From positions 48,725-112,724 of the IMG/VR virus record IMGVR_UViG_3300020421_000005: a stretch of 64,000 bases of DNA. One strand, 5' to 3'. Positions 29,838-33,175 of this stretch are shown piece after piece. Source of the DNA: a virus. Each line of letters opens with the position of its first letter. The first letter of the stretch is position 1. The translations under genes were made by a program, and so were the position numbers. Under the pieces are notes generated by a model that was not told the origin of the DNA, searched no databases, and worked only from the letters and a program-made list of their open reading frames with translations.

Positions 29838-30470
29838 ATGATACACATTGATTGCAGAAAGCAATTCTTAGATTGGTCACAGTACGATCTGACTAAGGAT
29901 GAAGTCTATGTTGTAGACTACATGTTTCCGCCTTGGTTTGTTCACCAAGTACATGACATGGTGATGACAGGATACAACTGGTTCTGGGGACATACCAGTG
30001 GATATGCCGAAGATGGTAGAGATGTCGGTGCAGACCCAACATGGGAAGAAGCACCAGCATTGAAACAACAAATATTTCCTCCAGACAGAAATGATATTGC
30101 ACAGGATAGTTCCTTCAAAATGATCTACAGTGCAGTTATGCACACACTTCCATTTGAAGTGGAACTTGGTGAGATAATGATAAATGGACAACAGTGGATA
30201 CATAATACAACGCCTCATCAAGATTGCACATGTGATAACGGTATAAGTTTTGTTTACTATATTAATAAACATTGGCAACCAGAGTGGGGAGGACAGATAA
30301 AGTATAAATTAAATGATGAATGGCAAGGTGTAGACCCTGCCCCAGGCAGAGTTGTGTTCTTCAAGGGGAACATATGGCATCATGGTATGCCACCAAATGA
30401 AGTATATCGTGGACTTAGAGCAAGTCTTGTCTACAAAACAATGAGAACTGTACCATTACCTTCAGAATGA
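29838..30470 (+). CDS. 2-oxoglutarate/Fe(II) dioxygenase (prolyl 4-hydroxylase-like)
   Basis: A 210-residue enzyme with triad His127-x-Asp129 (TPHQDC), distal His181 or His182 (IWHHGMPP) and Arg194. FVYYINKHWQPEWGGQIKY is the usual strand pair. First of a run of related genes between the hub operon and the tail fibre. Such enzymes could hydroxylate virion or host proteins; the substrate is unknown. Confidence 0.85.
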   Translation: MIHIDCRKQFLDWSQYDLTKDEVYVVDYMFPPWFVHQVHDMVMTGYNWFWGHTSGYAEDGRDVGADPTWEEAPALKQQIFPPDRNDIAQDSSFKMIYSAVMHTLPFEVELGEIMINGQQWIHNTTPHQDCTCDNGISFVYYINKHWQPEWGGQIKYKLNDEWQGVDPAPGRVVFFKGNIWHHGMPPNEVYRGLRASLVYKTMRTVPLPSE

Positions 30471-30994
30471 AACAAGAAATCTTTGGAATACCTATCTTTC
30501 ATGATCAGGTTGATGTAACTAAATTTGATTGTATTCCTCTTGCTCCCTTAGAACCCACTTGGGATTCTGGAGTTATGTCTAGTTTCTCATCGCAGAAACA
30601 AGAAGAGATTCCAGAATCAATCTGGGGTTACTTATCTGGTGTGGTAGAGAGAAATCTCTATTCAGCACAACTGATGGGAAAGAACGCAAGGTTTGGACAT
30701 ATATGGAGGAATGTTTATAAGAAACATGATTACCAAGATGCTCACATACATCCTAAAAGTCAATGGAGTTATGTGATATATGTTGATGTGACATCAAGAA
30801 CTGCATTTTTTAATCCTTCAATTCATAACATTCAGAACCATTTTGGTTGCACTTTGCCCCAGTTTCCGTTAGACTATAAACCGAATCTGGAGCCTGGGAG
30901 TATAATTATATTCCCATCATTCCTCATGCACATGGTCAACTCAGGCAATGAGGGAACTACAATATCTGGAAACATTTACATGGAATACTCATGA
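30467..30994 (+). CDS. 2-oxoglutarate/Fe(II) dioxygenase-type protein (TIGR02466-like)
   Basis: A 175-residue protein starting EIFGIPIFHDQVD, with His93 or His95 in DAHIHPKSQWSYVIYV and His155 in FPSFLMHMVNSG. The pattern fits the putative 2OG-oxygenase family also found at 46811-48877 and 51966. ATGA overlaps on both sides. Confidence 0.76.
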   Translation: MKQEIFGIPIFHDQVDVTKFDCIPLAPLEPTWDSGVMSSFSSQKQEEIPESIWGYLSGVVERNLYSAQLMGKNARFGHIWRNVYKKHDYQDAHIHPKSQWSYVIYVDVTSRTAFFNPSIHNIQNHFGCTLPQFPLDYKPNLEPGSIIIFPSFLMHMVNSGNEGTTISGNIYMEYS

Positions 30995-31293: not shown

Positions 31294-31396
31294 CCAAATC
31301 TGGGAGTGGGAAGAAACTCCAGAACTAGCGGCATATATTGCCAAACAAACTGGCAAGAAGGTGTTAAAAGATGGTCCTAAAATACCCGAATCTTAA
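31247..31396 (+). CDS. 49-residue TTG-start protein, unknown
   Basis: TTG at 31247 has GGGAGG six bases upstream, a strong ribosome site inside the preceding gene. The product starts MVKRTLTIQKKNPQHNQIWEWEETPELAAYIAKQ and looks protein-like. It overlaps the next dioxygenase by 26 bases. Confidence 0.58.
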   Translation: MVKRTLTIQKKNPQHNQIWEWEETPELAAYIAKQTGKKVLKDGPKIPES

Positions 31397-31961
31397 AGAC
31401 CATATATTTGAATATGATTTGCTATCTGATCAGGAATGTGATCAGATAGTATCTCTTTTAGATTCTCGTGAATGGGGTGAATTCTCGTGGTATCAGGACT
31501 TTGAACAGGTTGATATTGATAAAGAATCAAATATGCAATCAACCGTAACTGCTCCAGAGGCTACAAACATAATACAACCACATATAAATGGTGAGTTGTT
31601 TGCTGCTTTTCATGAAAAATATAATTACTATGATGTTGAGGAGGGTCAAACTAGCGGTTCATTTTGGGAAGCTTGCTCAGGTATAAAATTTAATAAGTAT
31701 AATGTTGGCGATTATTTGAGTCCTCACTACGATCATATACGAGATTTCTTTCAAGGACAATTTAGAGGCATACCTGTTACCAGTGTGGTGGGTGTGTTGA
31801 ATGACGATTTTGAAGGAGGTGAGTTTAGGTTTTGGAAGGAACACACAGTCAATATAAAGAAGGGAAGTGTGTTAGTATTTCCAGCATTGTACTTGTTTCC
31901 ACATGAAGTGACTCCAGTTACAAAAGGAGTCAGATATTCGTGGATATCATGGATTGTATAG
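31371..31961 (+). CDS. 2-oxoglutarate/Fe(II) dioxygenase (prolyl 4-hydroxylase-like)
   Basis: A 196-residue enzyme: LSDQECDQIVSLL start, triad His119-x-Asp121 (LSPHYDHI), His178 (LFPHEVTPV) and Arg188. Closest relative in the window is the gene at 41206, which shares YLSPHxD, EGG and LFxHEVxPVTKGxRYS. It is directly followed by the tmRNA gene. Confidence 0.87.
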   Translation: MVLKYPNLKDHIFEYDLLSDQECDQIVSLLDSREWGEFSWYQDFEQVDIDKESNMQSTVTAPEATNIIQPHINGELFAAFHEKYNYYDVEEGQTSGSFWEACSGIKFNKYNVGDYLSPHYDHIRDFFQGQFRGIPVTSVVGVLNDDFEGGEFRFWKEHTVNIKKGSVLVFPALYLFPHEVTPVTKGVRYSWISWIV

Positions 31962-32136
31962 TCCTGATGTATGACTCAAAAAGACATGTAGGTGGTGTCA
32001 CCGACATTCTGGACAGGGGTTCGATTCCCCTCATCTCCATTCAAGGGGATGCCCAGGCTTCGACAGGGTATACGGAACATGACTGAAAACCTGCTTGGAT
32101 AAGCAAAACACAGATGCTAATAACATCGACACCGCT

Positions 32137-32211
32137 GCGAACAACATCGTAGCATTCTCTCGTGTTCTCACAAGAGAATTTGCCCGCACTGACGAACTCG
32201 TCACTGCCTAA
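32137..32211 (+). other. tmRNA tag-peptide reading frame
   Basis: From GCG at 32137 the tag is 24 residues: it begins ANNIVAFSRV and ends TDELVTA before TAA at 32209-32211. Marine cyanobacterial tags begin similarly (ANNIV-FSR) but are shorter and end VAA. The same frame upstream holds GCT AAT AAC ATC (32116), a near copy that could be the real resume codon and would give 31 residues. Confidence 0.7.
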
Positions 32212-32255
32212 GGGGCAATCGGGGATTAGTCACTCCTTGTTAACCAAGTGACTGT

Positions 32256-32270
32256 GGGGGCTTTGCCCCC
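32256..32270 (+). terminator. 3' hairpin of the tmRNA transcript
   Basis: GGGGGC-TTT-GCCCCC stem at the end of the coding piece; followed by TCC, not a U-run. It may be a processing or termination signal. Confidence 0.5.
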
Positions 32271-32292
32271 TCCTATATAAATTAAAACACTC

Positions 32293-32481
32293 ATGAGATT
32301 ACAATTCTGGTATTCAAAAGATATTAAAGAGTGGCATTGGACACTTCACACCAGACATTATGCCCCCGAAGGGCAGAATTACTACCACACCTCTGGATCA
32401 GGAACTAATGTGAGAGAGGTTATGGACAAAGTTGCCTCAGAAGTTGAACATTTAGTAGAAGAAAGAAACAAAGATGTTTGA
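32293..32481 (+). CDS. Conserved-type small protein, unknown (62 aa)
   Basis: Starts MRLQFWYSKDIKEWHWTLHTRHY, with a helical acidic end. An AT-rich CTATATAAATT box just upstream could be a late promoter. It overlaps the next gene by 8 bases. Confidence 0.72.
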   Translation: MRLQFWYSKDIKEWHWTLHTRHYAPEGQNYYHTSGSGTNVREVMDKVASEVEHLVEERNKDV

Positions 32482-33175
32482 ATTAAGTGAAAAGTTAGAA
32501 GTTGTTGCTATCAATGAGATAGGACCTGAGAATAGGTCTGCTATGTTGATAGATAATTTTTACCAGAATCCTGATGAGATAAGGAATCTGGCACTTAGAT
32601 TACCAAAGAGAGAAGATATACCATTAGTTAATCATCACTCAGGAACTAGATCAGTTCTTGAAACTGAGGAGTTACGGAAGAACACTGAAAGATTATTCAA
32701 AGAATTACTCTATGATGACCAATTCTGGGGTAGACCAACAGATAGAAGTTTTGTAGAGAAGAACATGGATTTCATGCCATTCCTAGTGGATTGGATTGAC
32801 CAAGATACTGTTGCTAAACAACCATTACAGTTACTACCACATCAAGTTTACTATGCAGAAAACCCAAGTCCATTTCAATTTACCATAGAAATTTTTCTCA
32901 ATAAAAATATGCCCAACTGCGGTGGCACTGATGTTTGGTCATTTGCTGGAAAGACTTCTGTTCAAGAGGACATGAAGAATATGTATGCAGATGCTGATGC
33001 TTTCTCACTTAGAAAAGATGTTTATGAATCAGTTCTTGCATGGAAACAATGTATGATGTTTGGTATGGAATACAATAGAGCGATTATTATTCCCGCTGAT
33101 ATGTTGCAAGCACCATTTGTTACGGCAGGCATGTATGAAGAGGAAATGAGGTTGAGTCAAAGACTGTTCTTATAG
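32474..33175 (+). CDS. DUF6445-like protein, dioxygenase fold but triad not clear (233 aa)
   Basis: Starts with MLIDNFYQNPDEIRNLALRLP (about 24-44), the opening of the DUF6445 family, which is related to 2OG dioxygenases. The expected HxD is not evident in HQVYYAENPSPFQFTIEIFLN, so it may be catalytically dead or use other ligands. It precedes the large fibre gene. Confidence 0.68.
   Translation: MFELSEKLEVVAINEIGPENRSAMLIDNFYQNPDEIRNLALRLPKREDIPLVNHHSGTRSVLETEELRKNTERLFKELLYDDQFWGRPTDRSFVEKNMDFMPFLVDWIDQDTVAKQPLQLLPHQVYYAENPSPFQFTIEIFLNKNMPNCGGTDVWSFAGKTSVQEDMKNMYADADAFSLRKDVYESVLAWKQCMMFGMEYNRAIIIPADMLQAPFVTAGMYEEEMRLSQRLFL

Follow-up and report, generated by a model that had tools for sequence, protein, structure and literature searches.

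The window, a stretch of 64,000 nucleotides that forms part of a 112,724-base virus record, probably encodes a phage two-piece tmRNA of picocyanobacterial type that resumes translation at GCU 32116 to append a tag of 31 residues, with a hairpin (HP1) masking the restart and further hairpins lengthening the reading frame. The tag would owe its length, twice that of the host tag, to a conserved RNA hairpin gained in the virus lineage. Since this hairpin covers the restart site, the oddity of the tag appears to lie mainly in the RNA, with the altered tail secondary.

The permuted tmRNA gene and its phage relatives

ARAGORN independently calls one tmRNA in the window, permuted, with the tag ANNIDTAANNIVAFSRVLTREFARTDELVTA. 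The Rfam model cyano_tmRNA (RF01851) matches the window at full length (model positions 1-288) with 111 bits and an E value of 3e-29, above its gathering score of 70 bits, and a merged permuted tmRNA model gives 84 bits. The phage tmRNA proposed in the first-pass annotation is therefore borne out. Both ARAGORN and Rfam place the acceptor piece upstream of the coding piece, which is the permuted order. The window has the alanine identity pair G3-U70 as well as the T-loop TTCGATTC; the 3′ acceptor strand CATCTCC and the discriminator A occupy 32032-32039, and U70 of this strand pairs with G3. Additionally, the Ala resume codon GCU at 32116 has an A at -4 (32112), a trait of RF01851 members. The spacer between the two pieces is presumably processed out, by analogy with cyanobacterial permuted tmRNAs. 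The parts of the gene are as follows.

31950-32302, +: permuted two-piece tmRNA gene (extent from ARAGORN; Rfam RF01851 covers 31967-32270)
31991-32039, +: acceptor piece, the 3′ part of the tRNA-like domain with T-arm, acceptor strand CATCTCC and discriminator A (sequence, Rfam)
32040-32044, +: spacer TTCAA, 5 nt, between acceptor and coding pieces (sequence)
32045-32065, +: start of the coding piece, 5′ acceptor strand GGGGATG (at 32045) and TTCGAC (sequence, Rfam)
32112, +: A at -4 of the resume codon, matching E. coli A86, by which SmpB sets the frame (93/93 first sites have A; PMC2481249, PMC8363625)
32116-32118, +: best-supported resume codon, GCU (ARAGORN, A at -4)
32116-32136, +: phage-only 7-codon leader, ANNIDTA (comparison with relatives and hosts)
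32137-32163, +: host-like tag body ANNIVAFSR, the "second copy" (comparison with hosts)
32116-32211, +: tag reading frame, 31 codons and TAA (ARAGORN, sequence)
32200-32208, +: C-terminal codons GTC ACT GCC, VTA (sequence)
32113-32127, +: HP1, the resume-codon hairpin, GATG 32113-32116 with CATC 32124-32127, loop CTAATAA (comparison, folding)
32134-32153, +: HP2, GCTGCGA 32134-32140 with TCGTAGC 32147-32153 (comparison, folding)
32154-32179, +: HP3, the extra hairpin of 31-32 residue tags, ATTCTCTCGTG with CACAAGAGAAT (comparison, folding)
32180-32218, +: HP4, TTGCCC 32180-32185 with GGGCAA 32213-32218, enclosing TGACG-AACT-CGTCA and holding the last tag codons and the stop (comparison, folding)

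The tag is unlike the host type, having 31 residues, a 7-residue leader and a VTA end where hosts have about 16 residues, an ANN/KIVxFSR start and a VAA end. Tag type is a variable feature of the cyanobacterial permuted tmRNA and no requirement of the RNA family RF01851.

Among named viruses, the closest are the Synechococcus myoviruses S-SSM7 and S-SSM6a (82% identity across 65% of an 8.5-kb query), whose tmRNA DNA is 94-95% identical to that of the window; judged by these matches, the source virus is a marine Synechococcus myovirus close to S-SSM7. We observe the same tmRNA layout in the isolates S-SSM7, S-SSM6a, Sf-FS3, S-CAM1 and S-CAM3 and in scores of IMG/VR contigs, and this recurrence argues against chance or an assembly error. 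S-SSM7 and S-SSM6a (Lipsvirus) share the 31-residue tag and the VTA end with the window; however, their leader reads AKSSDTA and their HP1 has 6 bp with a 6-nt loop. In GenBank their tmRNA is covered by a hypothetical protein ending at the tag stop (SSSM7_025, L001:2543-2761, GU071098.1 21009-21227; CYVG_00208, L002:2600-2761), and the region has no tmRNA feature. Nine viral permuted tmRNAs without a leader (L124, L127, L135, L137, L138, L141, L145, L275, L278) have 14-residue tags, ANK/NIVSFRRTAVAV, which end in VAV and never in AA.

Phage-encoded permuted tmRNAs are also described for Melnitz and other marine phages, and that survey lists 53 two-piece tmRNAs, 50 of them marine or aquatic (PMC9004378). 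The Melnitz gene is alphaproteobacterial in type, whereas the type here is cyanobacterial, and the passages of PMC9004378 consulted mention neither a leader nor a hairpin.

The leader and the hairpin over the resume codon

Tags of the leader-bearing phage group consist of A[KN]xxxxA, ANNIVAF[ST]R and a variable tail, with 21-32 residues in total. The leader is always 21 nt long and always open. It is found in 61 of 85 viral permuted tmRNAs, a minority being without it, and is absent from all 113-114 host loci examined. Its wording varies: the window has ANNIDTA, and AKTSDxA, ANTSDxA and AKTDTPA are among the forms of other loci. In all of them the 3′ half of the leader forms base pairs with positions at the resume codon and ahead of it. 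The resulting HP1 is AGAUG-CAAANA-CAUCU in most loci, AUCUG-CAAAAA-CAGAU in the AKTDTPA group, GACG-CCAAAAA-CGUC in L110 and GAUG-CUAAUAA-CAUC in the window, so that AGAU/AUCU is swapped for AUCU/AGAU and UA for CG in a compensatory manner. Forms with a 7-nt loop have one base more in the loop and one base fewer after the stem, and the frame of the tag body is therefore kept.

A stem of at least 4 pairs is present in all 63 distinct leaders compared to 17% of shuffles, and one of at least 5 pairs in 54 of the 63 compared to about 5%. Pairing is complete at all five pairs in 42 of 42 sequences, with AU to CG and GC to UA changes in 13 of the 42 and UA to CG in L110. On its own the hairpin of the window is weak (-2.1 kcal/mol vs -4.7 to -6.0 in most relatives), and HP1 is missing from the minimum free energy (MFE) fold of some relatives (L044, L040, L081, L084). 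In leader phages HP1 pairs positions -3 to 0, and mostly -4 too, leaving bases 2 and 3 of the codon free; in the predicted fold of the window the A at -4 is unpaired. By this comparison, what stays constant in the leader is the hairpin that surrounds the resume codon, and the leader seems to exist mainly as RNA.

The picocyanobacterial hosts provide a predicted hairpin for comparison. Like the phage gene, ssrA of Prochlorococcus and marine Synechococcus (RF01851) has the permutation, the tRNA-like domain, the PK1 region, the A at -4 and ANNIVxFSR, and it also has a predicted resume-codon hairpin. Unlike the phage tag, the host tag has 16 residues, a VAA or IAA end and no leader: the 114 host tags read ANKIVSFSRQTAPVAA, ANNIVRFSRQAAPVAA and close variants, all ending in VAA but for one IAA (five host ARAGORN calls carry an extra N-terminal VT, which we took as spurious). 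The VAA end given for hosts in the first-pass annotation thus holds, with that one exception, as does the departure of the window's VTA from it, and the host length of about 15 residues is corrected to 16. The predicted host hairpin, GCNAAC/GUUNGU, is 98% paired with one covarying pair (UA in 11 and GC in 20 of 32 distinct sequences). This pair also separates Prochlorococcus-type from Synechococcus-type tags (host loci L148-L267). In hosts the prediction has the resume codon itself paired and positions -4 to -1 unpaired. In the phages HP1 takes up -3 to 0 and usually -4 as well; the phage form would thus move the masking from the codon to the bases read by SmpB.

A resume-codon helix, "helix m", was energy-predicted for many tmRNAs, and footprinting suggested a similar helix in E. 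coli (PMC1168896). This helix, or U88-A100 hairpin, resembles HP1 in lying around the resume codon and in being thought protective until use (PMC1168896, PMC8363625). However, helix m of the 2005 comparative model rests on energy calculation and phage HP1 has compensatory changes. The phage set thus gives comparative evidence for a kind of resume-codon hairpin which previous tmRNA models could predict only from energy. Our literature search (excluding Gaudin 2002, cyanobacterial two-piece tmRNA structure) turned up no account of the leader, of covariation in it or of its displacement compared with the host form.

The leader also bears on the doubled ANNI of the window. GCTAATAACATC at 32116 and GCGAACAACATC at 32137 are near copies (10 of 12 bases identical) that lie 21 nt apart in one frame with the stop TAA 32209-32211, as described in the first-pass annotation. 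By comparison with hosts, the second ANNI belongs to the host-like tag body (ANNIVxFSR), which the 7-codon phage leader has pushed downstream. Because the leader of most relatives does not read ANNI, local convergence seems a better account of the repeat than a double start. It is possible, though we think it the less likely course, that the doubling is instead a relic of the host resume region having been duplicated in tandem, with the window ancestral in form. The identity of the two copies, the GCNAA that begins all leaders and the related hairpin over the resume codon in hosts would all fit such a duplication. However, besides the window only four loci (L040, L044, L048, L104) have an in-frame ANNI at the first site, other leaders match the body poorly without gaps, and the ANNID rows fail to group as a single clade in the phage tree, whose 103 columns are too weak to settle the ancestry of the ANNID leader or to give significant event counts. 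The other hairpin register is found in most leaders and in nearly all of the shorter tags, and we therefore favour apparent convergence through a change of register over an ancestral ANNI. Recombination is likely.

Hairpins of the tag body and tail, and the tag ending

HP2 (GCUGCGA-ACAACA-UCGUAGC) is formed by the end of the leader and the tag body. Its variable pair is UA in 19 and AU in 9 of 29 sequences of an unbiased set, 61 loci found by T-arm pattern alone with no tag sequence in the pattern; the change is silent in the Ala and Val codons. Single changes occur in L046 (GC to AU) and L142 (GC to CG). Our first search pattern had fixed codon positions 1 and 2, and body conservation over all loci was therefore discarded and redone on the 61 T-arm-found loci. 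There, codon entropy is 0.08, 0.05 and 0.65 bits at the first, second and third positions; since codons vary almost only at third positions, both the body peptide and the RNA appear to be held. Some HP2 pairs were likewise fixed by the first pattern and are given no weight; HP1 lay outside it.

In the alignment of HP1 and HP2 (A3), 94.8% of cells are paired and 5 pairs are changed on both sides. The covariation score is 0.202; the mean of 500 shuffles is 0.048, none of them reaching the observed score, and slid versions give 0.053 at most. In tags of 31-32 residues the added stretch folds as HP3, and HP4, in remodelled form, spans the stop codon. In a set of 16 distinct sequences, HP3 and HP4 with HP2 are 94.9% paired with 7 pairs changed on both sides, and covariation across HP2-HP4 is 0.185 vs 0.086 in shuffles (0/500). 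The MFE fold of the window's tag region has four hairpins (z = -4.5). Independent contrasts on starred tree branches number 3 for HP1 and 4 for HP2, all or nearly all concordant and too few for significance. Together these hairpins suggest that phage tag length may evolve by added RNA hairpins and not by peptide selection alone.

The endings of the 39 distinct phage tags are ATA (13), VTA (8), VAA (8), ATV (7), VPA (1), VAV (1) and ALA (1). All finish in A or V with a small uncharged end, and near-identical long tags end in either VTA or VAA. VTA is no unique feature, as endings interchange among relatives. In E. coli, changes of the penultimate Ala raise the KM of ClpXP and hardly alter Vmax (PMC7652416). 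By analogy with this ClpX of another organism, VTA is likeliest a weakened but retained degron, which suggests weaker ClpXP recognition of tagged proteins and no block. The penultimate Thr found in 28 of the 39 distinct phage tags and in 0 of 114 host tags, together with the raised KM, could be read as adaptive, with the VTA end protecting tagged phage proteins against the host's ClpXP, but we consider this unlikely. Tags of one clade end in VAA, VTA, ATA or VPA, every end stays small and uncharged, and Vmax in E. coli is little altered; the idea of a tail changed to block degradation, raised in the first-pass annotation, fares poorly against this interchange of VTA, ATA, VAA, ATV, ALA, VPA and VAV. 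The VTA and ATA codons also lie in the covarying HP4 stem, so that RNA pairing rather than shielding may drive the VTA change. The natural VAA, VTA, ATA and ATV endings offer material for degradation tests in cyanobacteria.

The site of resumption and a model of the restart

Resumption at the second site would give a tag of 24 residues and at the first one of 31, with a VTA end either way. In E. coli the start is set by A86, located at -4 of the resume codon; the mutants A86C and A86U are inactive in a KanR assay (PMC2481249), and A86 is contacted by SmpB Tyr55 and Tyr24 (PMC8363625). Among related phage loci, the first site has A at -4 in 93/93 and the second in 1/93; hosts have it in 113/113, and the T-arm-found set gave 61/61 and 1/61 for the two sites. 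Additionally, the distance from the PK1 stem to the first site is about the host spacing, and the second site lies 21 nt further. Because of the A at -4 and the host-like PK1 spacing, the resume codon is most likely GCU 32116, with a tag of 31 residues, the longer of the lengths considered in the first-pass annotation. A start at GCG 32137, with the first copy untranslated or a decoy, would yield a tag whose ANNIVxFSR start matches host tags, and HP1 could hide the first site. We nevertheless hold such a start to be very improbable: 92 of 93 second sites lack an A whose E. coli counterpart cannot be replaced by C or U without abolishing activity, the first site keeps the host's approximate PK1 spacing, and the frame is held across the leader, including the paired +1/-1 changes. 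On the missing A at -4 we reject the second site as resume codon, and the supposed duplication of a working start lacks support. Decay of the tmRNA into a remnant with a drifting tag is very unlikely, since for all the diversity of C-termini and tail lengths the covariance match is full length and G3-U70, the A at -4, the frame, the body peptide and the covarying hairpins are all kept.

With resumption at GCU 32116, the phage-encoded permuted tmRNA, if expressed and functional in infection, would work with host SmpB, AlaRS and ribosomes. No SmpB was found in the six phage records searched (one a fragment) and no phage-encoded ClpP in the phage records searched, so host factors would have to serve the phage tmRNA. 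Translation would restart at this codon and add a 31-residue tag in three parts: the phage leader of 7 residues, then ANNIVxFSR as the host-type body, and finally an extended tail whose VTA end would be a weak host-like degron. By pairing with nucleotides immediately 5′ of the resume codon, the 3′ half of the leader would form HP1, which would keep the codon's first base and the bases read by SmpB covered until SmpB or the ribosome opened the hairpin. Tags would be lengthened by hairpins added within the reading frame.

We tentatively suggest a further step, in which the restart has been rebuilt as a gate. A covarying hairpin moved upstream would hide the bases read by SmpB and not the codon, the phage tmRNA might open under other conditions or compete differently for ribosomes, and tag length and ending would be largely by-products of the stacked hairpins. 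How the tmRNA restart codon is found and guarded has so far been known from E. coli mutants, cryo-EM and energy-predicted helices. The large natural set of phages with compensating pairs, and the different placement of the host hairpin, make masking of the resume codon directly testable.

The neighbours of the tmRNA are 2OG-Fe(II) oxygenase genes at 29838-30470, 30467-30994 and 31371-31961 (Pfam PF13640, PF13759). A 62-aa ORF (32293-32481) directly follows the tmRNA, with an annotated ORF of the same length and place in S-SSM7 (SSSM7_026), and downstream lies a DUF6445-like gene (32474-33175; match sub-threshold). A terminator-like 13-bp hairpin at 31420-31451, followed by TCTCTTTTAG, is located inside the start of ORF 31371-31961.
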